A stretch of 64,000 nucleotides of DNA from contig NZ_CP008884.1 in NCBI RefSeq assembly GCF_000725385.1, positions 3,782,001-3,846,000 of the forward strand, in the 5' to 3' direction. Numbering within the stretch: position 1 is the first letter of the stretch; every line of letters begins with the position of its first letter. This DNA comes from Dyella japonica A8 (GTDB lineage: Bacteria > Pseudomonadota > Gammaproteobacteria > Xanthomonadales > Rhodanobacteraceae). A program made the translations under genes and the position numbers. Shown here piece by piece: positions 5,988 through 17,420 of this stretch. The notes beneath the pieces were generated by a model. It was not told the DNA's origin. It made no database searches and worked only from the letters and a program-made list of their open reading frames with translations.

Positions 5988-7853
5988 TCAGCCCGGGCCT
6001 GGTGTCCAGGCGGCCGGCAGGTCCAGTGCATCCCGCGTCAGGGCTTCCGCCCCCCGTGGCTTCGGTGAAGGTGTCGGCACCAGGGCTGGCCACGGGGCGC
6101 CCTCATATATATGTGCCCACAGCCGATCCAGCGCCGCATAACCATAGGGCAGCAACGGTACGTGCCGGTCACCGAAGCCGGGGATGGCCAGGAAGGCGTC
6201 GAAATGCTGGGCATACGGCACCTTCCAGTACAGCGGGTGGCCGCCGCCGGCCCGCAGCCAGGCCACGTACGGCTCGGACGTGAACGAGGTGGGCAGCAAA
6301 CCGTCGCTGGCGCCATGCACCACCCACAGCGGAAGGCTGGGGCGCGGCATCTTCACCGTGGTTGCCGCCACGCCGTCGCGCAGGGGCTGAGTGCTGGCGT
6401 CGGTGTCCTCCCACAGCGCACGCAGGCAAAGCGCGCCCGGCAGCGTCGGATCGGCCGTGTGATCGCTACCACCGAACAAGCCCACGCCATTACCTGGCGG
6501 AATGCCGGACGCATCGGCCCACCAGCTCGCCCGGGTGGCGGCATCCACCGGCCCCGGCGCGCCATGGGCGCCTAGCCCACCGTAGTGGAAGCCGCAAGGC
6601 ATATCGTCCGGGCCACGGCGCATATAGGCAGAGGCATACCCCGCCGTGACCACGCGCCACACATCCAGTGCCGTGGTGGAGGCCGCCGTGGCCATGGCGT
6701 CGTCCGTCCAGCCGCCAGCCCGCAAGTGCTCATAGGCCTGCGCCGCCTGCCCGGCCACATGCGCGGCACTTACCAGACGGTGCTCGTGCAATTGATGACA
6801 CCGCTGCGCCCATGCGGGTGGCACCTCGCCCTTTGGCGTGCGCGCCATCGGCGTGCCGTCGAACCGCGCATCGGCGAGCGCGCACGGCAGCCAGATCGAT
6901 GCGTCGCTGGCGTAATCGAACAACGCACGCCCTTCTCCCGGCACCCGCACGCTGGGCTCCAGCGCCACCACGCCGGCGAGCAGATGCCCGTCATCCAGCC
7001 CTGCCGCCTGCAGCACCGCCCCACCGCCGTTGGACAGGCCCGTGGCGATGATGCGCGTGTTCTGTGCAGTGAAAGGTGCCTGGTCGGGAAACGCGCGGTC
7101 GAGCATGGCCAGCCCGAACTGCGCCGCCTGCAGCACGTGCCGGCCCCAGTCGGCCTCGGGGTTGTCCCCGGAATGCAGGTGTTTGATGCCGATGCCGCCC
7201 TGGGCGGATGCCTTGGGCGGTTCGAACTCCAGCGTTGCACTGCCGCGCCGGGCGCGCGTGCCATCGAGCGCGACGCCGGTATCGTCTGCCGGGTCGAAGT
7301 AACCGCCGCCCGTGCCCTTGTCCGTATAGGCCACGGCGCAACCGCGTGGCAAACCCCACGCACCCGCCAGTGAGATGGCGCCATAGATGCCGCGCGAACC
7401 CGACGATGCCGTCACTACCAGGCAGCGGCGCGAACGATCGAAGTGGTCCGGCGCCTGCAGCAGCACGCGGTGCGGCGCATGCGCGCCGGGAATCCAGGCA
7501 AATGCCTGGTACTCGCGTCCCGGAACATCCGGCACGGCGCCATACACGCTCCCGTAACCACCCAGCGGCCCAAGGTCGGCGATACCTTTCCAGCTCGCCT
7601 GAATCGCCCGCCGCCGCAATTCAGCGGGCGTCGGTTGCTGTGGATGCGCGATCGGCGACGGCGCGCCCGCCAGGCCCGCCAGCCCCAGCCCTGCGCTGAG
7701 CAGGTCATCACCCTGCTGGTGCTCGGTGACACGCACCTCGCCGCGCACAAAGTCAGGGGTCTGCATGCGGGACTCCTTGGTTGCCCCCGGGGCCACGCAC
7801 GACGCCAGCAGCGGCACGATCAGCAAGGTCCATCGGGAAAGGCGTTTGGTCAT
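5988..7853 (-). CDS. 3-hydroxybutyrate oligomer hydrolase, lipoprotein
   Basis: A 621-residue hydrolase resembling the D-3-hydroxybutyrate oligomer hydrolase family, which splits PHB oligomers into 3-hydroxybutyrate. The start at 7853 gives a lipoprotein signal (hydrophobic stretch then LLASC), so the enzyme is predicted to be anchored in the periplasm or outer membrane. The nucleophile motif [16 protein letters not shown] lies near residue 285, and a C-terminal [12 protein letters not shown] and YAQHFDAF supply candidate Asp and His. Other family-like segments are [12 protein letters not shown] and the paired [14 protein letters not shown]. It is divergent from the response-regulator gene, with a candidate operator (7891-7902) between them. 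Confidence 0.9.
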
Positions 7854-7890
7854 AACCACCACCATAACAAGCAGGTGCGCGTCTGCCATC

Positions 7891-7902
7891 GTACGAAAGT
7901 CC
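7891..7902. promoter_or_regulatory. candidate operator between oligomer hydrolase and response regulator
   Basis: GTACGAAAGTCC matches the minus-strand sequence GTACGAAGGTAC of the receptor/permease intergenic palindrome at 10 of 12 positions. It lies about 40 bp upstream of the hydrolase start and 80 bp upstream of the regulator start. Role is inferred. Confidence 0.35.
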
Positions 7903-7983
7903 AGCACGCCACCAGTCGCCTTGCTGTGACGACATGACTTTCTGATCTCGACGTAGGCGCCCGCCTTGGCTAACGTCAGCGAC

Positions 7984-8640
7984 ATGACCACCCTGCTGAT
8001 CGCCGACGACCACCCGCTGTTCCGCGCTGCATTGCGGCAAGCCGCGCGAGAAAGTGTGGATGGTTGCCACGTGATCGAAGCTGCCGATCTGCATGGGGTG
8101 CTCGATGCCCTCGCCGGCGATCCGGATATCGACCTCGTGCTACTGGACCTGCATATGCCCGGAAGTCAGGGGCTCTCTGGCCTGGCCACGCTGCGCGGCC
8201 AATTTCCCAGCGTCGCGGTGCTCGTGGTGTCGGCGCACGACGAGGCACGCACCGTGCGCCGCGTGCTGGATCACGGCGCATCGGGTTTCATTCCCAAAAG
8301 CGCCAGCCCCACCGAGATTGCCGAAGCCATTCGCAGCGTGCTGGACTGCGGGCGCTGGCTGCCGCCGGCACTCGCCCAGGCCGTGGCGGCGCTACCGGCC
8401 GATCCAGCCGACGTCGACCTCGCCTCGCGCCTCGCCCGCCTCACCGAACAGCAATATCGCGTGCTCGCCTTGCTGGGCGAAGGACTGCTCAACAAGCAGA
8501 TTGCCGACCGGCTGACGATTCAGGAGCGGACGGTGAAAGCGCATGTCACCGCCATCTTCGAGAAGCTGGGCGTGCGCAACCGCACGCAGGCGGGCGTGCT
8601 GCTGCGTTCGCTGGACCTCGCCGATTCGGCGCGGGTCTGA
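7984..8640 (+). CDS. LuxR/NarL-type response regulator (CrbR/ErdR-like)
   Basis: A 218-residue two-domain response regulator. The receiver domain covers residues 1-120 with acidic pair ADDH (D8, D9), phospho-acceptor D55 in VLLDLHMPG, S82 in VVSAHD and K104 in FIPKSA. A LuxR-type helix-turn-helix covers about 148-208 (LTEQQYRVLALLGEGLLNKQ, then TVKAHVTAIFEKLGV). I chose the ATG at 7984; a TTG at 7966 would add six residues. Converging on it at 8883-12185 is an SSS-type hybrid kinase, the usual partner of CrbR/ErdR regulators that control acetate and acyl-CoA synthetase genes. Partnership is inferred from proximity and family. Confidence 0.9.
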   Translation: MTTLLIADDHPLFRAALRQAARESVDGCHVIEAADLHGVLDALAGDPDIDLVLLDLHMPGSQGLSGLATLRGQFPSVAVLVVSAHDEARTVRRVLDHGASGFIPKSASPTEIAEAIRSVLDCGRWLPPALAQAVAALPADPADVDLASRLARLTEQQYRVLALLGEGLLNKQIADRLTIQERTVKAHVTAIFEKLGVRNRTQAGVLLRSLDLADSARV

Positions 8641-8664
8641 ACATGCACTGCCGCACCGCTCCCC

Positions 8665-8863
8665 TGTAGGAGCGCACTTGTGCGCGACCGCGGCGCAACA
8701 GGAGCGCCGTAACCCCCATGTCGCCCACAGGGTGGGCTCCCACAAGAGACTGCGAAGCCCAATGGAGGCAGAGCGCACACGGTGGGAGCGCACCCTGTGC
8801 GCGACAAACTGACGAAGCGGAAACAATATGGCGCTGCGGTCGCGCACAAGTGCGCTCCTACAA
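8665..8863. repeat. cluster of four GGGAGCGCAC...GTGCGCGAC repeats
   Basis: Four copies of the short GTGGGAGCGCACCCTGTGCG-type unit in alternating orientation, at about 8665-8688, 8719-8743, 8781-8805 and 8839-8862. Two copies carry ACTTGTGCG instead of CCCTGTGCG, and one is degenerate (TCGCCCACAGGGTGGGCTCC). They fill the space between the convergent response-regulator and kinase genes and can form long hairpins. Confidence 0.9.
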
Positions 8864-8882
8864 AAGAGCGGCCAACGTTGGG

Positions 8883-11800
8883 CTATCGCCGCGCCACGGC
8901 AACACGCTGCAACACCTGCCGCAATGCCAGCGGCTTGAGCGGCTTGTAAAGCACGCCAATTCCTCGATCGAGCAGGCGTTGCCGCAACTCGCCATCGCGA
9001 TCGGCCGTCAGGATGACGGTAGGCACGTCGCTCGCCTCGCGCCCCAATTCACGCAGGACATCGAGTCCCGTGCGGCCGCCATCCAGGTGATAGTCGAAGA
9101 TATGCAAGTCCGGCGCCCACGGTGCCGCGCGTGCCTGTTCCAGTGTGCGCGCGGCGTGCACCTGCCATCCCCAACTGCCCAGCAACACGCTCAGCGCCGA
9201 GAGCGCAGCCGGCTCGTTGTCGAGCACGAGTGCCCGCCCCGCCAGCAACGATGGGGGCACGACCGCCGACGACGCGGGCTGCGGCGAAGGGTGTGCCGCC
9301 GGCACCGACAGGGCGAACACACTGCCTTGCCCTGGCCATGACCTGAGGCTGATGGGGTGATCGAGCAGCAGCGCCATGCGTTGCGCGATCGATAAGCCCA
9401 ATCCCAGGCCTTGCCCGCCGACGGTGCTGCCACGCCGGAACTCCTCGAAGATCCACTGTTGCTCGCCGGGTTCGACGCCCGGCCCGTTGTCCCACACCTG
9501 CAACAACAGGCGTTCGCCGTGACGGCGCACACCAAGCACGACGCGTCCGCGTTCCGCGTAACGCAACGCGTTCGAGAGGAAGTTCTGGAGCACGCGACGC
9601 AGCAGCTGCGGATCGGAATGAACCCAGCAACGGGTGGGCACCACGTCGAAGCGCACGCCCTTGTCGCCGGCCATGGCGCGAAACTCCGCCGCCAGCGGGT
9701 CGAACACGTCGGCCAGCGCGAAGTCGCGCATCTGGGGCTGCAACCGCCCTGCCTCCAGTCGCGCCATGTCCAGCAGGCCGGCAAGCAAACCCTCGGTGGA
9801 CGACAACGCGCCGTGCAGATGACGCACCGTCGCCATGTCGGTGCCGCGCTCCGCCAAAGCATGCGCAAACAGTTGCGCGGCGTGCAGTGGCTGCATCAGG
9901 TCATGGCTGACCGCCGCGAGGAATCGGCTCTTCGCCTCGTTGGCGCGCTGCGCTTCGTCCGTGGCATCGGCCAGCGCGCGCGTGCGTTCGTCGACACGCT
10001 GCTCCAGCGTTTCATTCGATGCCTTGAGCGCGCGCTCCGCCTGGCGGAAGGCCGTGACGTCGGTGAAGGTCGCGACGAAACCGCCACCCGGCATCGGGTT
10101 GCCACGGATCTCCACGATGGTGCCGTCCGGGAAGCGACGCTCGGAAAGATGGCGCGTGCCTGCGCGCATGTGCGTCAGGCGACGCTGCACGTCGTCTTCC
10201 GTCGCCATGACGCCGATCATCCCTCGTTCGATGTTGTAACGCGTCAGATCCGCGACCGGCCGCCCGACCCGCAGAAGCTCTGGGGGATAACCGAACAGAC
10301 TGGCGTATCGCCGGTTCCATGCGACCAGGCGTAGCTCCGCATCCACCACGCAGATGCCCTGGCTCATGTTTTCCAACGCCGCTTCGAGCACGCGCTGGTT
10401 GAAACGCAAGTCCTGGGCTGCTTCGCCGACGATGGCGGCAACGGTATCCAGTTCCTCCCGGCGCTGTTGCCGTACGACTTCGAGCAGCAGGCGCGCGGAT
10501 GCCGCACCGATCACCGCCGCCAATTCGTGCTCCACGGCCGCGACACGCGCATGGCCCGCAATGCCCTGTGGCAACGCATCGCCGAACAGATGCCCGACGC
10601 GCTCGGCTGGCAGAAAGCGCGAAGCCAGCGCGCGGAGTTCCGCCAGGCCGATGTCGCCAACATGAGCGCTACGCGGCGCATGGCCAAAGCGCGACCCGGC
10701 CACGAGGGACATCACGACCACGTTGGCGATCAACCCAACCACCACGGCACGCGCCAGACGGCTCCAGTCGTCTAGCCCGAGCAACCCGTCGGGTGCGAGC
10801 CAGGCGATGCCGAGCGGCCCCGTGTGCCACCACGCCGGCCCATGCGGCTGCATGGTCGGCAACAAAGCGTAGAGCCACACCAGCGTGCCCACCCCAAGCC
10901 CCGCTGTCACCGCACGCGGCCCCAGCTGCGGCCGGTACACCGCCGCAAGCAGGGCCGGCGCGAGTCCGGCCAGCGCGGAGAAGGAGATGGCACCGATATC
11001 CGCCAGTGCGTCGTTGCGCGCCAGGATGCGGCTGTAACCCCAGGCGAGCAGGATCACCGCCAGGATGGCGGCGCGCCGCTGGTTGATCACTTCGCCACGC
11101 AGGTCGCCCCGCTCATCGCGTCCCCACCCTGCGCGCACGCGCAGCGGGGCAATGAAGTGATTGACGATCATCAGGCTCAGCGCCAGCGTCGCGACCACCA
11201 CCATGCTGGTCGCCGCGCTGAGGCCACCAAGAAAGGCCAGCAACGCAAGCCCATGCTGGCCGCGTGCCAGCGGCAGCGCCAGCACGTAGAGATCCGACGG
11301 TACGCCCCCCGGCCCCAGCCACGCATCGCCCAACCGCGCCAACGGCAACAGCGGCAGTGCGATCAGCAGCATGTACAGCGGAAACAGCCAGCGTGCCGTA
11401 CGCAGATGCGAACTGTCGCGGCACTCCACCACGCCCGCGTGGAACTGGTGCGGCAAGGTGAACATGGCCAGCGCGCCCAGAAGGATCAGCGCAGGAAAGC
11501 CATGGCTGTCGTGCTGCGTGGTGGCGCTGGCCATCAACTGGCGACTGGTCGGCGACAGCAGCAGTGTACCCAGCGCCAGCATGGCGCCGAGCTTGAACAG
11601 CGATTCAAAAGCCATGGCGAGCACGAGCCCGCGATTGTGCGCCATGGCCGACGCCCGCCGCGTGCCGAACAGCATCGCGAACAAGGCCATCAACAAGGCC
11701 ACGTAGAGGGCACTGTCCTGCCATGGATCAGCCTCGTCGAGTTGGCCGCGACTGAGCATGCCGTAGCTCATCGCCACGGCCTTCAGCTGCAGCGCGATAT

Positions 11801-12185
11801 AGGGAACGATGCCAATCAGCACCACGACCGTCACCAGTGCCGCCAGCCCGGCATGGCGCCCCAACCGCACGGCGATCAGGTCGGCGATCGAGCCTGCGTT
11901 GTAGTCACGCGCCAGCTCCACCAGCCGTCGCAACACAGCAATGGCGAAGACGTACATGAGGATCGCACCCACGAAGGTGGGTGGCAGCCACCAGCCCGAA
12001 CGACTGGCCTGCGTGACCGTGCCGTAGAACGTCCACGAGGTGCAGTGGATGGCTAGCGACAATGCATAGACGATAGCCCAGCGGCGCTCGAACAAACGTG
12101 GCCGGCGTTCGCCGAGCACGGCCACGCCGAACAGCAGGCCCAGCCAGACGAGTGCGGCGGCGGTGATGGTGCCGGCGGTCAGCAT
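8883..12185 (-). CDS. SSS-domain hybrid sensor histidine kinase (CrbS/MxtR-like)
   Basis: A 1100-residue membrane kinase. Residues 1 to about 500 form a sodium:solute-symporter-like domain with some 12-13 hydrophobic helices (for example CTSWTFYGTVTQASRSGWW near residue 48). A STAC-like linker follows at about 510-570 (LRALASRFLPAERVGHLFGD), then a PAS domain from about 605 (ENMSQGICVVDAELRLVAWN). The phospho-accepting H-box is AVSHDLMQPLHAAQLF near residue 757. ATP-binding boxes are LQNFLSNALRYA, VWDNGPGV and GLGLGLSIAQRM (about 870-930). A C-terminal receiver has its aspartate in IFDYHLDGG near 1028. Known CrbS/MxtR kinases have this architecture and pair with a LuxR-type regulator; the convergent gene at 7984 is the obvious candidate. 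Confidence 0.92.
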   Translation of the reverse strand: MLTAGTITAAALVWLGLLFGVAVLGERRPRLFERRWAIVYALSLAIHCTSWTFYGTVTQASRSGWWLPPTFVGAILMYVFAIAVLRRLVELARDYNAGSIADLIAVRLGRHAGLAALVTVVVLIGIVPYIALQLKAVAMSYGMLSRGQLDEADPWQDSALYVALLMALFAMLFGTRRASAMAHNRGLVLAMAFESLFKLGAMLALGTLLLSPTSRQLMASATTQHDSHGFPALILLGALAMFTLPHQFHAGVVECRDSSHLRTARWLFPLYMLLIALPLLPLARLGDAWLGPGGVPSDLYVLALPLARGQHGLALLAFLGGLSAATSMVVVATLALSLMIVNHFIAPLRVRAGWGRDERGDLRGEVINQRRAAILAVILLAWGYSRILARNDALADIGAISFSALAGLAPALLAAVYRPQLGPRAVTAGLGVGTLVWLYALLPTMQPHGPAWWHTGPLGIAWLAPDGLLGLDDWSRLARAVVVGLIANVVVMSLVAGSRFGHAPRSAHVGDIGLAELRALASRFLPAERVGHLFGDALPQGIAGHARVAAVEHELAAVIGAASARLLLEVVRQQRREELDTVAAIVGEAAQDLRFNQRVLEAALENMSQGICVVDAELRLVAWNRRYASLFGYPPELLRVGRPVADLTRYNIERGMIGVMATEDDVQRRLTHMRAGTRHLSERRFPDGTIVEIRGNPMPGGGFVATFTDVTAFRQAERALKASNETLEQRVDERTRALADATDEAQRANEAKSRFLAAVSHDLMQPLHAAQLFAHALAERGTDMATVRHLHGALSSTEGLLAGLLDMARLEAGRLQPQMRDFALADVFDPLAAEFRAMAGDKGVRFDVVPTRCWVHSDPQLLRRVLQNFLSNALRYAERGRVVLGVRRHGERLLLQVWDNGPGVEPGEQQWIFEEFRRGSTVGGQGLGLGLSIAQRMALLLDHPISLRSWPGQGSVFALSVPAAHPSPQPASSAVVPPSLLAGRALVLDNEPAALSALSVLLGSWGWQVHAARTLEQARAAPWAPDLHIFDYHLDGGRTGLDVLRELGREASDVPTVILTADRDGELRQRLLDRGIGVLYKPLKPLALRQVLQRVAVARR

Positions 12186-12240
12186 GGCTGCTTTCCCGCT
12201 GATCGCGGCTGCGCCCCATCACCGCCGCACGCTCCACGCT

Positions 12241-12325
12241 CGTCATCCCGGCGAAGGCCGGGATCCAGCGACGTTGCTCCGCTACGCCCCAAAGGCAATG
12301 GATCCCGGCTTTCGCCGGGATGACG
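12241..12325. repeat. inverted pair of CGTCATCCCGGCGAAGGCCGGGATCC repeat
   Basis: Arms at about 12241-12270 and 12298-12324. This is a variant of the family at 2882, with GGCGAAGGCC in place of CGCGAAAGCG. It separates the sensor kinase gene from the upstream PHB depolymerase gene on the same strand. Confidence 0.85.
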
Positions 12326-12396
12326 GAGAGGACGCATGCAGGCGACCGGTTGAAACAACTCACCACCCTTTTTAACTCGCCGCAAGCGAGCAGCCG

Positions 12397-13416
12397 TCAG
12401 TGCGGCAACCCCAACGCCCGCACAGCCCCCACCACCCAGCGCACCTGCACGCCCTGGCGGCTGTCGTAGTCGTTCCCCGAATACCCCCACCAGTCCCAGC
12501 ATGCCTGCGGATTCATGGGCGCGGTGCTCGCGCGGGTCTGAGGATACAGGACGACCACGTCGTAGGCGTCGGCCCAGCGGTTGAACCCGCCATCGGTGAC
12601 GAAGGCATCGCCCACCGCATCGGCGTTCTGCTTGCAGCCGTGGAACGCGACCAGCAGGCCGCAGCGCTTGCCGGCGACGCAGTCCGGCGGAAGATAGACA
12701 TAGCCCGCGGAAGCGAGGAAGGCGTCCGCACCATCGGGGCGATACGCATCTTGGCTGAAGCGGCGCAGCTCGCCCTTCGGTGCGGAGGCATCGCGCGGGG
12801 GCTTGCCGAACATCTGGTGGAAGATCTCCCCCGCTGCATCGAACCCGCAATGCCCGAGGTACGGCGAGACTGACTTGTCGCAGTCATCGCCAGTCGCGAC
12901 GATCGGCAGGTTGTGCGCAAACACGCGTCCACCATCGTCGGTAACCTTCAAGCCCTTCAACGCGGGCGCCGTGTCGCGCAGTTGCTCATAGAAGCGTGCA
13001 GCCGACTCGGCCACCGGGGGCGCCACCACGGCGTCGTCCTTGCCATGCAGCAGGTAGACCTGCCCGTGCGCGAGGTCCTTCAACGCGCCGATCTCGCCGG
13101 AGGCCGCCCGCTGCTTTGCCTTTGCCGCGAGCGCCACCGCATCGGGCGCAGGCACGCCCTTCATGCAGGTACTGAGCGCCTGATCCAGCCGCCCCGCCGC
13201 GCAACCGAACGGTCCGCCGGCCACCAGTGCCGCCGACGGGAAGAGTTCCGGGTACGCCATCTGCACCTGCGTGGCCATGTACGCACCGGACGACAGACCA
13301 GCGACCGCCACCCTCGTCGGATCGAGCTTCAGCTTGGGCAATGGCGGCGCATCATCCGCGCAGGCGACGCCGGACAGCAGAAACAAACTACACATCAGGC
13401 CGGTCAGGCGTCGCAT
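12397..13416 (-). CDS. secreted poly(3-hydroxybutyrate) depolymerase-type esterase
   Basis: A 339-residue exported alpha/beta hydrolase. Residues 1-21 are a signal peptide (GLMCSLFLLSGVACA). The nucleophile motif GLSSGAYMATQVQMAYPELF lies near residue 40, unusually close to the N-terminus, as in extracellular PHB depolymerases with a circularly permuted order. LLVAFHGCKQNAD, late in the chain, holds the oxyanion-type histidine. Several cysteines (GCAAGR, STCMKG, DDCDKS, GHCGFD, DCVAGKRC) suggest disulfides suited to an exported enzyme. It should hydrolyse PHB to oligomers outside the cell; other polyester substrates are possible. Ribosome-binding site AAGGAG precedes the start. It is 21 bp downstream of the TonB receptor gene and likely co-transcribed with it. 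Confidence 0.88.
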   Translation of the reverse strand: MRRLTGLMCSLFLLSGVACADDAPPLPKLKLDPTRVAVAGLSSGAYMATQVQMAYPELFPSAALVAGGPFGCAAGRLDQALSTCMKGVPAPDAVALAAKAKQRAASGEIGALKDLAHGQVYLLHGKDDAVVAPPVAESAARFYEQLRDTAPALKGLKVTDDGGRVFAHNLPIVATGDDCDKSVSPYLGHCGFDAAGEIFHQMFGKPPRDASAPKGELRRFSQDAYRPDGADAFLASAGYVYLPPDCVAGKRCGLLVAFHGCKQNADAVGDAFVTDGGFNRWADAYDVVVLYPQTRASTAPMNPQACWDWWGYSGNDYDSRQGVQVRWVVGAVRALGLPH

Positions 13417-13437
13417 GCGCGTCTCCTTGGCAGTGGA

Positions 13438-15654
13438 TCAGAACGTGTACTTGGCGGTGAGCGTGACCATGCGCGGCGCACCATAGAAACCCGTGACGAT
13501 ACCGAGTGCGGCGATGTTATAGCCGGTGGTGCGATAGGACTTGTTGGCCAGGTTGGTGCCTTGCAGACTGAGTGTCCACGGCTGGTCGATGCGCCACACG
13601 ATGCCCGCATTCCACAGCCCGTACGACGGCTGCATGATCAGCGGCGACAGCGTCGTCTCCGGGTATACGCTGGTCTGGTAGGTGTAGTTGATGCGACCGC
13701 TGACGCTGCCGCCGTTGTCCAGCGGAATGGTGTGCTCCAGGTTCAGGCCGCCCGACCACTTCGGGGCGTTGGTGAAGCGCTGCTTGTCGGCAATGTTGAC
13801 GCCGCCGCTTTCGTAGTCGGTGTACTTGGTATGCAGGTAGGCCCAGTTGCCGCTGAAGGTCCAGTTCTCCACCGGCGTCCAGGCGAACTCCTCTTCCCAA
13901 CCGTCGATATGCCCCTTGCCCGCATTGGTGAAGTCACCGAAGAAGCCCTGCGCGCCGTTGGGCAAGGTGTACGAGCTGAACACGGACAGCTGGATGTCCG
14001 AGTAGATGTTGTGGAACAGCGCGGTGTTCATCATCAGCGTGTCGTCGAAGAACGACATCTTGCTGCCAATCTCGTAAGACGACACCTTCTCGTCCGCGAT
14101 CGGCCGGCACGACTGCGGAATCGCCGAGCAGTTCGCGCGGATGTTGTAGCCGCCCGAGTGGAAGCCCTGGCTGTAGCTGGCGTACAGCTTCACCTGATCG
14201 GTGACGGCATAGTCCAGCGACACCTTGGGTGACACGTTGTGCGAGGTATGCGACCCGCTGAAGTCGGCCAGCGTCGCGATCGGCGTGGTGAAGGTCTGGT
14301 CCGAGTAGCTGTAGTTCTGGATGACGGCCGACTTCTTCTCGCTGGTATAGCGCAGGCCGACATCCAGGCTCCATTGCGGGCTGATGTCCCAGGTGAAGTC
14401 GCCGTAGCCGGCGTAGCTCTTGGTGCCGATGTTGCCGCCCGTGCTGCCGTACTGGGAGAAGCGCGGGTAGAACGGCGGCGAGCCAAGGAAGATGTTGTGG
14501 ATCTCGCCCTTGGCCGTGCCATCGAAGTAGAACAAGCCGAACACGCCGTGGATGGCGCCGCCGTTGTCGTAGTTGGCCTGCAGTTCCTGGGTGAACTGAT
14601 GGTCCTTGTAGACCGCGTTGACGTCGGCGATCTTCTCCGGGAGCGTGTCGAAATCGATATTGCTGTCGGTGGACGAGCCGCGATACGCGGTGATGGATTT
14701 CAGCGTCCACTCCTGGCTGACGATCCAGTTCAGCGTCAGCGCCGTGCCCCACAGCGTGGTGTGGTTGAGCTGTTCCATGCCACTGCGCGTATTGAAGTCG
14801 CTAGCCAGCGGCGCATAAGTGGGATCGAACTTGTTGACGGTAAGCATCTTTGCGCCGCGCGGATTGGAGTTGTCGCGCAGGCCATCCACCGACAGCTGGG
14901 CATTGAAGTCGGAGGTGGGAAAGAAGCCCAGCGACGCGCGCGCCGCATTGCTGTTCTTGTTCCCATTGCGGCTGTCGCTGAGCAGGTCCTTGCCGAAGCC
15001 ATCGTTGTGCTCACTGGCATAGGCGATGCGGCCACGCCACACGCCGTCGGACGTGGCGCTGCCCACACTGCCCTTGATGTCCTTCTCGCCGTGCGTGCCC
15101 ACGGTGCCCTCGACCGAGCCCTCCGTCTTGGTGGGCAGCGGGTTGGATACGTACTTGATGGCGCCGCCGATGGTGTTCTTGCCGTACAGACTGCCCTGCG
15201 GACCACGCAGTACTTCGATGCGGTTGGTGTCGAACACGTCGAGCACCGTGCCCTGCGGGCGCGCCATGTAGACGTCGTCGAGATAGATGCCCACGGCCGG
15301 GTCGAAGCCCCAGGTGGGGTCAGCCTGGCCGACGCCGCGGATATAGGCGGTCAGTGTCGTATTGGAGCCGCGCGCCGCATAGATCTGCAACGAAGGCACC
15401 TTGCCCTGCAGGTCGGCCAGGTTCTGCACGTTCTGGTTGAACAGCGTCTGCGCGGTGAACGCGCTGACGGCGATGGGCACGTCTTGCAGGGTTTCCTCGC
15501 GCTTGCGCGCGGTCACCTTGATGCCTTCGAGCTGTTTGGCGTCGGATGGCTTGGCCGTGGTGGACGTTCCCTGGGGCGCGTCATCGGCATGCACCGCCAG
15601 ACAGCACATGCCCACCGCCAGACCAATCGCCAGACTCAGATGCTTGCGTTTCAT
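13438..15654 (-). CDS. TonB-dependent outer-membrane receptor
   Basis: A 738-residue receptor starting MKRKHLSLAIGLAVGMCCLA, a signal peptide cleaved near AVHA. A possible TonB box is LEGIKVTARKR. The plug domain spans roughly 55-170, with RKREETLQDVPIAVSAF, GVGQADPTWGFDPAVGIYLD and the signature NRIEVLRGPQGSLYGKNTIG. The barrel ends with the expected terminal phenylalanine (TLTAKYTF). It would import a bulky substrate using TonB energy. Because the PHB depolymerase gene follows 21 bp downstream and a candidate 3-hydroxybutyrate permease is divergent, the substrate may be PHB oligomers; this is inference. The family is large and also imports siderophores and glycans. Confidence 0.93.
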   Translation of the reverse strand: MKRKHLSLAIGLAVGMCCLAVHADDAPQGTSTTAKPSDAKQLEGIKVTARKREETLQDVPIAVSAFTAQTLFNQNVQNLADLQGKVPSLQIYAARGSNTTLTAYIRGVGQADPTWGFDPAVGIYLDDVYMARPQGTVLDVFDTNRIEVLRGPQGSLYGKNTIGGAIKYVSNPLPTKTEGSVEGTVGTHGEKDIKGSVGSATSDGVWRGRIAYASEHNDGFGKDLLSDSRNGNKNSNAARASLGFFPTSDFNAQLSVDGLRDNSNPRGAKMLTVNKFDPTYAPLASDFNTRSGMEQLNHTTLWGTALTLNWIVSQEWTLKSITAYRGSSTDSNIDFDTLPEKIADVNAVYKDHQFTQELQANYDNGGAIHGVFGLFYFDGTAKGEIHNIFLGSPPFYPRFSQYGSTGGNIGTKSYAGYGDFTWDISPQWSLDVGLRYTSEKKSAVIQNYSYSDQTFTTPIATLADFSGSHTSHNVSPKVSLDYAVTDQVKLYASYSQGFHSGGYNIRANCSAIPQSCRPIADEKVSSYEIGSKMSFFDDTLMMNTALFHNIYSDIQLSVFSSYTLPNGAQGFFGDFTNAGKGHIDGWEEEFAWTPVENWTFSGNWAYLHTKYTDYESGGVNIADKQRFTNAPKWSGGLNLEHTIPLDNGGSVSGRINYTYQTSVYPETTLSPLIMQPSYGLWNAGIVWRIDQPWTLSLQGTNLANKSYRTTGYNIAALGIVTGFYGAPRMVTLTAKYTF

Positions 15655-15742
15655 AGCTCCCCAGCTCCCCTCGCTTTGACGCATCCCGTGGACACAGGAC
15701 GCCGAATGCCACGGAGCTTAGGCAGCGCCCTCGCGCACCACA

Positions 15743-15760
15743 CTTGTACCTTCGTACAGT
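15743..15760. promoter_or_regulatory. palindromic candidate operator between receptor and permease
   Basis: TGTAC-CTTC-GTACA (15745-15758) is a near-symmetric inverted repeat in the 174-bp divergent promoter region. It lies about 90 bp upstream of the receptor start and 70 bp upstream of the permease start. Its core is shared with sites at 199-210 and 7891-7902. A dimeric LuxR-type regulator could bind it; no experiment is implied. Confidence 0.45.
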
Positions 15761-15828
15761 GCCGCGCGCCGGCACGCCTCTGGATACTCGCCGCACGACG
15801 ATACCCACGGCGGGTGTCCGGGGAACCG

Positions 15829-17229
15829 ATGATGGCGTTTCTGATCGTGCTGGCCGCGCTGTGCTTCCTGATGTTCGCGGCCTATCGCGGCTACAGCGTG
15901 ATCCTGTTTGCGCCGGTGGCCGCACTGGGCGCGGTGCTGTTGACCGATCCCTCGCTGGTGGCGCCGATGTTCACCGGCCTGTTCATGGACAAGATGGTCG
16001 GCTTCCTCAAGCTGTACTTCCCGGTGTTCATGCTCGGCGCGATCTTCGGCAAGGTGATCGAGCTGTCGGGTTTCTCCAAGTCCATCGTGGCGGCCACCAT
16101 CGGCCTGCTGGGGCGCAGCCGCGCGATGTTGTCCATCGTGATCGTGTGCGCCCTGCTCACCTACGGCGGCGTGTCGCTGTTCGTGGTGGTGTTCGCGGTG
16201 TATCCCTTCGCGGCGGAGCTGTTCCGCCAGTCCGACATTCCCAAGCGGCTCATTCCCGGCACCATCGCGCTGGGCGCGTTCACCTTCACCATGGATTCGC
16301 TGCCGGGCACGCCGCAGATCCAGAACATCATCCCCACCTCATTCTTCGGTACGAATGCCTGGGCCGCGCCATGGCTGGGCACGTTGGGCGCGGTGTTCAT
16401 CCTGGTCGCGGGGTTGCTCTATCTGGAGTCGCGCCGGCGCAAGGCCGCGGCCATGGGGGAAGGCTATGGCACCGAACTGGTGAACGAACCCGTCGCCTTC
16501 GAAGGCGGCAACCTCGCCCATCCGCTGGTCGCCCTGCTGCCGCTGGTGCTGGTGGGGGTGCTTAACAAGCTGCTGGGCGATGCCATTCCCCGCCTGTACG
16601 GCGCCAGCCATTCGTTCATGCCGGCCGTGATCGGCGAGACCAAGCCGGTGGTGCAGGAAATCTCCAAGATCGCCGCTATCTGGGCGGTCGAAGGCGCCCT
16701 GCTGGTCGGCATCCTCTGCGTGCTTGCCTTTGCCTGGCGCCCGGTGACCCGTCGCTTCGCCGAAGGCAGCAAGGCGGCGGTGGGCGGTGCGCTGCTGGCG
16801 TCCATGAATACGGCGTCCGAGTACGGCTTTGGGGCGGTCATCGCCGCCCTGCCGGGTTTCCGGCTGATCGCCAACGCCCTGCACGCCATCCTCCATCCGT
16901 TGGTGAACGAGGCCGTGACCGTCACCGCGCTGGCCGGTGTCACCGGCTCCGCCTCGGGTGGCATGGGCATCGCGCTGGGGGCCATGGCCGACACCTTCAT
17001 TCATAACGCCCAGGCGGCCGGCATCCCGATGGACGTGCTGCACCGGGTGGCCGCCATGGCTTCCGGCGGCATGGATACCCTGCCCCACAACGGTGCGGTG
17101 ATCACCCTGCTGGCCGTCACGGGGCTGACCCATCGCCAGTCCTACCGGGACATTTTTGCCATCACGGTCATCAAGACCCTGGCCGTGTTCGTGGTGATCC
17201 TGGCGTATGGGCTGACCGGGCTGGTCTGA
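15829..17229 (+). CDS. GntP-family permease, candidate 3-hydroxybutyrate transporter
   Basis: A 466-residue inner-membrane permease with about 12 hydrophobic segments. It starts MMAFLIVLAALCFLMFAAYR. Family segments include LKLYFPVFMLGAIFGKVIEL, LTYGGVSLFVVVFAVYPFA and the C-terminal MASGGMDTLPHNGAVITLL. GntP/CitM-type transporters carry gluconate and related acids, and a branch annotated as D-beta-hydroxybutyrate permease belongs here. Start 15829 (or 15832) follows GGGGA; an open frame continues far upstream but lies antisense to the receptor gene and looks like a shadow. The neighbouring PHB enzymes favour a 3-hydroxybutyrate substrate; gluconate remains possible. Confidence 0.9.
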   Translation: MMAFLIVLAALCFLMFAAYRGYSVILFAPVAALGAVLLTDPSLVAPMFTGLFMDKMVGFLKLYFPVFMLGAIFGKVIELSGFSKSIVAATIGLLGRSRAMLSIVIVCALLTYGGVSLFVVVFAVYPFAAELFRQSDIPKRLIPGTIALGAFTFTMDSLPGTPQIQNIIPTSFFGTNAWAAPWLGTLGAVFILVAGLLYLESRRRKAAAMGEGYGTELVNEPVAFEGGNLAHPLVALLPLVLVGVLNKLLGDAIPRLYGASHSFMPAVIGETKPVVQEISKIAAIWAVEGALLVGILCVLAFAWRPVTRRFAEGSKAAVGGALLASMNTASEYGFGAVIAALPGFRLIANALHAILHPLVNEAVTVTALAGVTGSASGGMGIALGAMADTFIHNAQAAGIPMDVLHRVAAMASGGMDTLPHNGAVITLLAVTGLTHRQSYRDIFAITVIKTLAVFVVILAYGLTGLV

Positions 17230-17286: not shown

Positions 17287-17313
17287 TGCGGGTCCTCGGT
17301 TCGCACCGAATAG

Positions 17314-17420
17314 AGGCGCTGGATTCCCGCTTTCGCGGGAATGACGGTGAGGTTTTTAACGGGCGTGGCCGCAAATAGTGCGACCCCGTCATTCCCGCGA
17401 AAGCGGGAATCCAGCGCCTT
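17314..17420. repeat. perfect inverted pair of CGTCATTCCCGCG repeat
   Basis: Two 33-bp arms (17314-17346 and 17387-17419) are exact reverse complements around a 40-bp spacer. This is the best-preserved pair of the family in the window. It lies between the permease terminator and the typA promoter. The rest of this 336-bp gap holds only those elements. Confidence 0.92.

Follow-up and report, generated by a model that had tools for sequence, protein, structure and literature searches.

Why should a secreted depolymerase, a TonB-dependent receptor, an oligomer hydrolase, a permease and a sensor kinase with its response regulator stand side by side in the genome of Dyella japonica A8? The genes in question occupy positions 5988-17229 of a 64,000-nucleotide stretch of contig NZ_CP008884.1 (positions 3,782,001 to 3,846,000; hereafter the window), in a genome of 4.83 Mb whose nearest relatives are other Dyella. 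The original prediction, made from the sequence alone, listed these genes without an unrelated one among them, and scans for open reading frames (ORFs) and Pfam/NCBIfam profiles indeed found six intact genes in place and no further gene between. From low to high coordinate they run hydrolase (-), regulator (+), kinase (-), depolymerase (-), TonB receptor (-) and permease (+). We conclude, with a probability of roughly 0.8, that the locus is a dedicated, locally wired regulon for eating extracellular poly(3-hydroxybutyrate) (PHB) and its oligomers. That the genes form a single PHB pathway had been proposed at the outset, and gene families, co-conservation in relatives and a shared operator all support it.

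In the proposed pathway the secreted depolymerase would cut PHB to oligomers of 3-hydroxybutyrate (3HB), which the TonB receptor would bring through the outer membrane and the lipoprotein hydrolase would cut to 3HB. The permease would then carry 3HB inside, to be oxidised to acetoacetate by a 3HB dehydrogenase whose gene lies elsewhere in this genome and within the locus in many relatives. Control would lie with the adjacent kinase, of the CrbS type (SLC5-type), which presumably responds to 3HB or a close relative and would drive the regulator; this in turn would bind one palindromic operator in both divergent promoters (hydrolase/regulator and receptor-depolymerase/permease) and switch the genes on rather than repress them.

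The two hydrolytic enzymes fall into well-defined families. The hydrolase matches PF10605 (3HBOH) with 417 bits against a cut-off of 27, and Ser320, His596 and Asp598, the probable catalytic residues, are kept in at least 98% of 107 relatives; a curated cut-off well exceeded and a conserved Ser/His/Asp set together place it in PF10605. Its start is probably near 7853, which gives it a lipoprotein N-terminus with a lipobox, LLASC, recognised by eye. The depolymerase matches the NCBIfam family of type-2 extracellular polyhydroxyalkanoate (PHA) depolymerases, NF050059 (316.9 bits over 280), and has a relative of known structure in the PHB depolymerase 2d80 (E 1e-44). Ser42, Asp128 and His168, which from the alignment with 2d80 and from background knowledge we take to be the catalytic triad, are kept in at least 98% of 51 relatives. 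With a score over the cut-off, an early lipase box, this triad and a signal peptide seen by eye, the protein is classed as a type-2 extracellular short-chain PHA depolymerase, and it would be expected to hydrolyse PHB to 3HB oligomers. It has a single domain and ends with it, leaving no room for a substrate-binding domain. One relative locus (L191, from position 6332; genome G154) has a second depolymerase-like gene, 32% identical to that of the window, between regulator and kinase. Five others (L152, L178, L188, L189, L190) represent a divergent second locus type, which has an AMP-ligase-like gene together with a depolymerase of type 1; a palindrome in these loci reads GTACCTAGGTAC in all but L190.

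Co-conservation in relatives had been set beforehand as one of two points on which the prediction would stand or fall, and it was found: permease, TonB receptor, depolymerase, kinase and regulator all lie beside the hydrolase in 29 of 79 loci, some of the remainder being truncated where the contig or the 10-kb flank ends. With co-conserved receptor, enzymes, permease and local regulator, this is a polymer-utilisation locus in the wide sense, and further partial loci exist. The likeness to a polysaccharide-utilisation locus (PUL) that had been noted earlier holds for its logic only, as no SusD-like partner was found; none of the six locus proteins matches SusD and the hydrolase is the only lipoprotein among them. 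Across 199 genomes of the order, a locus-type kinase (threshold of at least 925 bits, chosen from a gap in the scores between 930 and 845) is present in 102; the hydrolase was found in 96 of these 102 versus 33 of the 97 kinase-free genomes, and the type-2 depolymerase in 46 of 102 versus 14 of 97, no count over these 199 genomes being corrected for kinship. When the search was widened to 232 genomes of the class, 12 matched the kinase, eight of them outside the order, and one of these eight has a locus-type kinase. In that genome hydrolase, dehydrogenase-like gene, regulator, kinase, receptor and permease are accompanied by operator-like sites.

The kinase/regulator pair resembles the CrbS/CrbR acetate switch, of which this genome holds a separate copy. 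A single further full-length relative of the window kinase is encoded in its own genome (791.4-794.9 kb; 43-45% identity), and acs, crbR and crbS stand together at 788.5-794.9 kb with the same convergent arrangement of regulator and kinase as in the window; the two regulators are 51% identical. Since the genome keeps acs-crbR-crbS elsewhere, the window pair is a second copy. Its kinase matches Pfam models for PAS_7, HisKA, HATPase and REC, and the protein aligns over its full length with the acs-linked CrbS; the N-terminal regions of both were searched with Pfam transporter models and matched none. A quick maximum-likelihood tree of 84 kinases (drawn from the order and class searches and the named loci, labelled by the better-matching query and rooted at the midpoint) has one branch, with a Shimodaira-Hasegawa-like approximate likelihood-ratio support of 99, that parts 66 locus-type from 18 acs-type kinases and leaves the window kinase outside the acs-linked CrbS clade. 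Several branches of this tree are long, and one locus-type row (L158) attaches near the dividing branch. The regulators differ in their recognition region, where residue 188 is arginine in 88 of 92 locus-type proteins and alanine in 12 of 15 acs-type ones. Judged from these sequences, the window pair would have arisen by duplication of CrbS/CrbR, in that direction, and would have shifted its operator.

Whether this pair controls the genes around it can be addressed through the promoters. ACTU, the published CrbR operator, is an imperfect inverted repeat of which TACTACCATCGTCGAAT is one example (PMC5715377). The acs promoter of D. japonica carries an ACTU-like site, CGACCAAAGTCG, and a GAC-N4-GTC site occurs in seven of nine acs promoters examined. 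The locus palindrome, with the strict pattern GTACSAARGTMC, is like the CrbR operator but has other outer bases, in which it differs from ACTU; the ACTU-like site sits at acs beside the separate pair. In the 4.83 Mb genome GTACSAARGTMC occurs exactly twice, once in each divergent promoter of the locus (the reversed pattern, as a control, occurs three times), which rejects the idea of a common genomic repeat. Correcting the starts of hydrolase (about 7853) and regulator (about 7984) makes both sites intergenic. These results bear on the notion of the window pair as a duplicated acetate switch, still controlling acs and actP and placed here by chance. An identity of 43-51% to the acs-linked pair would agree with it, as would the known role of CrbS/R (PMC5436829, PMC5715377), but the genome has its own acs-linked pair, no exact copy of the candidate operator exists outside the locus, the acs promoter carries another motif and the module is conserved across the order. 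We regard this explanation as highly improbable, and the window pair as the only acetate switch of the cell is rejected outright. The claim that the locus has its own two-component system is supported by both the paralogy and the private operator.

The same palindrome recurs in relatives. All 29 of their receptor/permease intergenic regions contain GTAC-N4-GTMC, and 28 contain strict GTACSAARGTMC. Among 40 selected genomes (29 kinase-bearing, 11 kinase-free) there are 84 sites in total; every one of the 29 kinase-bearing genomes has at least one no further than 12 kb from the kinase and 20 have two, making 49 near sites, and the 11 kinase-free genomes together hold six. We propose the palindrome as a candidate operator to which the adjacent regulator probably binds directly.

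It could instead be bound by another regulator, or be an RNA or DNA structure, since a palindrome alone names no protein and some regulator-bearing loci are without it. Its distribution argues otherwise. Of 80 relative loci 79 were assessed (L046 was dropped because its hydrolase begins at a contig end), and among 58 loci with a regulator 44 have the strict operator upstream of the hydrolase, versus none of 20 without a regulator alongside; L077, in which the kinase is kept and no regulator was seen, enters neither count. The 20 include two imperfect controls: the contig of L043 is so short that the regulator may be cut off, and L068 belongs to a genome (G191) with the kinase elsewhere and a looser site at the hydrolase. 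Among the other 18, four (L008, L009, L013, L058) were checked for a regulator elsewhere and their genomes have no locus-type kinase. In 11 of the 20 control loci 134-651 bases separate the hydrolase from TypA, which means that they lack the entire block. Mapped onto the hydrolase tree, the regulator comes or goes at least 12 times on starred branches (gains and losses pooled), and in 12 independent tree pairs the operator follows the regulator in a mean of 9.2 and opposes it in none (median p 0.004).

A related comparison used hydrolases separated from the kinase, on another contig or more than 100 kb away. In kinase-bearing genomes the strict site lies upstream of 14 of 19 such hydrolases and a looser site upstream of 17, many of these positives coming from one family and hence not being independent; G178 was excluded, as its hydrolase contig (L045) holds the regulator and part of the kinase. 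Among hydrolase-bearing genomes without a locus-type kinase a site was found in 1 of 20, at least five of which also belong to the named loci of the regulator test, so that the control sets overlap. Shuffled sequence gave 0.025% strict and 3.3% loose sites. The sole control with a site is Dyella lipolytica (G128), whose locus (L055) keeps the regulator; this locus also keeps the operator and a 70% identical permease, has no kinase, receptor or depolymerase match, and has two other ORFs filling the gap. That the operator goes with the regulator in independent tree pairs, that separated hydrolases have the site almost only where the genome has the kinase, and that the palindrome resembles the published ACTU core make a different binding factor or a structural role unlikely. 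The hydrolase has a bdhA-like gene upstream of it in 14 of 20 separated stretches versus 1 of 20 controls (fragments 38-43% identical). In 14 genomes (L205-L209, L211-L219) the operator mostly lies between this gene and the separated hydrolase, and such gene pairs would be a split-off part of the same regulon.

The receptor comprises a plug (PF07715) and a barrel (PF00593) and ends 21 bp before the start of the depolymerase. As its best NCBIfam match, below the cut-off, is a broad siderophore-receptor subfamily, it might import an unrelated nutrient such as iron-siderophore, with its clustering here incidental. It shares promoter region and operator with the permease, however, directly precedes the depolymerase, and keeps its position in relatives even where the receptor itself has been exchanged, so we give little credence to that possibility and favour 3HB oligomers as its probable cargo.

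The permease had been called GntP-type at the outset. Annotation of relatives agrees with the name: a search of plasmid records matched 103 records, and relatives with 70-75% identity are labelled 'GntP family permease' in the annotated part of the records. Pfam gives it no support, nor is there clear similarity to Escherichia coli GntP. The window permease has no match in Pfam or NCBIfam, GntP included (a weak test, as the membrane parts of both CrbS-type kinases are unmatched too), and 19 members of its family, including the window's, gave two weak non-GntP matches in Pfam and no transporter family. Alignment by hhalign with E. coli GntP had a probability of 0.6%, and with AtoE yielded nothing informative. 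The neighbourhoods of its relatives are consistent with a role in 3HB uptake: a 3HB dehydrogenase gene adjoins the permease in three of five read, two of them (both Azospirillum) also with both 3-oxoacid coenzyme A (CoA)-transferase subunits, while of the other two one has CoA-transferase subunits with no annotated 3HB dehydrogenase and one has neither.

A 3HB dehydrogenase had been noted as absent from the window, and none over the TIGR01963 cut-off was found inside it (best 92 bits, genome position 3819858). One over this cut-off is encoded at 699300-700064 of the genome; a palindrome scan of the bdhA region found no locus-type site. In distant families the module often has a short-chain dehydrogenase/reductase gene between regulator and hydrolase, and all 10 such genes scanned are over the 3HB dehydrogenase cut-off of NF009093, five of them also over TIGR01963. 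We therefore reject the idea that the dehydrogenase is missing from the pathway.

A number of observations weigh against a dedicated regulon for extracellular PHB. At the level of control, the strict operator is missing in 14 of the 58 regulator-bearing loci; the only two separated stretches that encode a regulator (G146 and G022) are without any site; and 29 of 78 operator-like sites in the selected kinase-bearing genomes lie elsewhere, two of them next to the hydrolase genes that G076 and G163 carry apart from the kinase. At the level of transport, nine named loci have in place of this receptor another with 32-36% identity to it, which makes its cargo unsure, and the structure model of the permease is poor (mean predicted local distance difference test score 53.6). 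The genome also encodes a class III PHA synthase, PhaC, over its cut-off with an adjacent PhaE match (about 2597.0-2599.2 kb; L200:304-2487), and a search of the genome found no class I PHA synthase over cut-off; the organism itself may therefore make PHB, and self-made PHB could be involved. Finally, 14 of 60 genomes with a type-2 depolymerase have no kinase, and 39 of the 102 with the kinase showed no type-2 match and no type-1 depolymerase over its cut-off, so that either the substrate common to all cannot be PHB itself or some depolymerases have been missed.

This last figure leads to an alternative that is quite possible, if somewhat doubtful, namely that the core of the locus is the scavenging of short 3HB oligomers or other small hydroxyacid esters from other microbes, with the depolymerase as a lineage-specific add-on. 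The 39 genomes without a recognised depolymerase contrast with the near-universal hydrolase (96 of 102), and several loci have all the other five genes and no depolymerase. On the other hand, where kinase and type-2 depolymerase occur together the two lie less than 4 kb apart in 44 of 46 genomes, that of the window included (in the other two the depolymerase is on another contig). The type-1 depolymerase, over its cut-off in 30 of the 199 genomes, lies 3.9-7.6 kb from the locus-type kinase in seven further ones. A regulon for PHB together with its oligomers remains our preferred reading for the window, and 3HB oligomers may be the core substrate of the locus as a whole.

Table 1. Features of the D. 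japonica A8 locus, with positions in the window.
Feature	Position	Strand	Basis
3HB-oligomer hydrolase, predicted lipoprotein	5988..7853 (ORF listed 5988-7991)	-	PF10605, lipobox
Candidate operator GTACGAAAGTCC, hydrolase/regulator divergent promoter	7891..7902	+	One of two exact genomic sites
CrbR2, CrbR-like (ErdR-like) NarL-type response regulator	7984..8640 (ORF from 7966)	+	Profile scans; 51% identity to acs-linked CrbR
CrbS2, CrbS-like hybrid histidine kinase	8883..12185	-	PAS_7, HisKA, HATPase, REC; long N-terminal membrane region
Type-2 short-chain PHA (PHB) depolymerase, predicted secreted	12397..13416	-	NF050059 over cut-off; 2d80 relative
TonB-dependent outer-membrane receptor	13438..15684 (signal-peptide start probably ~15654)	-	PF00593 + PF07715; N-terminus
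Candidate operator GTACGAAGGTAC, receptor/permease divergent promoter	15746..15757	-	Other of two exact genomic sites
Inner-membrane permease, probable 3-hydroxybutyrate/hydroxyacid permease	15829..17229	+	Annotation of relatives ('GntP family'); neighbours of relatives

The locus is flanked by housekeeping genes, named by eye as PpiB (peptidyl-prolyl isomerase), a YidB-like gene and TypA, which adjoin it in many relatives as well. Inverted repeats resembling repetitive extragenic palindromes were seen by eye at about 8660-8870 (regulator/kinase), 12230-12330 (kinase/depolymerase) and 17300-17420 (permease/TypA). Scans of the window for Rfam families and tRNA genes found none. Across the start of the window, on the complementary strand and up to about position 142, runs a gene for the propionate-CoA ligase PrpE (L107:6238-8142; TIGR02316, 1132 bits).

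Taken more broadly, we think it fairly probable that Lysobacterales and some neighbours have a previously undescribed class of TonB-based polyester-utilisation locus, in which a duplicated CrbS-type sensor switched its ligand from acetate to 3-hydroxybutyrate, and a symmetrical change in the outer bases of the operator, with a matching change in the recognition helix, gave a private operator that insulates the locus from the acetate switch in the same cell. The literature listed, which consists of the beginnings of abstracts and includes few subscription papers, contains no description of the locus and no CrbS-type pair linked with a PHB depolymerase. PHB is a bioplastic as well as a storage polymer that lysing bacteria release, and the locus offers a testable model of how Gram-negative soil bacteria may sense and consume it outside the cell. 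The paralog pair, one member for acetate and the other presumably for 3HB, is a natural setting in which to study ligand choice by SLC5-type kinases and operator change in a NarL-type regulator, and the operator could serve as a genome marker for users of PHB or its oligomers.

Several known systems can be set beside the locus. In Ralstonia and similar bacteria, extracellular PHB is degraded by a PhaZ depolymerase, PhaY/3HBOH and BdhA, the same enzyme steps as in the window; to our knowledge they do not stand there in one unit with a TonB receptor and a private two-component system, and the depolymerase here is of type 2, not type 1. TonB-dependent polymer-utilisation loci, such as the PULs of Bacteroidetes, likewise cluster a secreted depolymerase, TonB receptor, further hydrolase, inner-membrane permease and local regulator. 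The carbohydrate loci of Xanthomonas are of this kind too (PMC1790865). Here the substrate is a polyester, no SusD-like protein was found, and the CrbS-type kinase takes the place of the regulators usual in PULs. In the rhizobial RpuS/R system, which is reported to control the pyruvate symporter MctP (PMC9100948), a small carboxylic acid is again the specialty of an SLC5/STAC kinase. CrbS/CrbR (MxtR/ErdR), the SLC5/STAC hybrid-kinase system that switches acetate use, shares with the window pair its domain order, the convergent arrangement of regulator and kinase, the NarL-type regulator and an inverted-repeat operator with an AC-N4-GT core. In contrast, the window kinase falls on the other side of the dividing branch, the outer bases of its operator read GTAC instead of CGAC, the recognition region has arginine in place of alanine, and beside the pair stand PHB genes, where CrbS/CrbR has acs.

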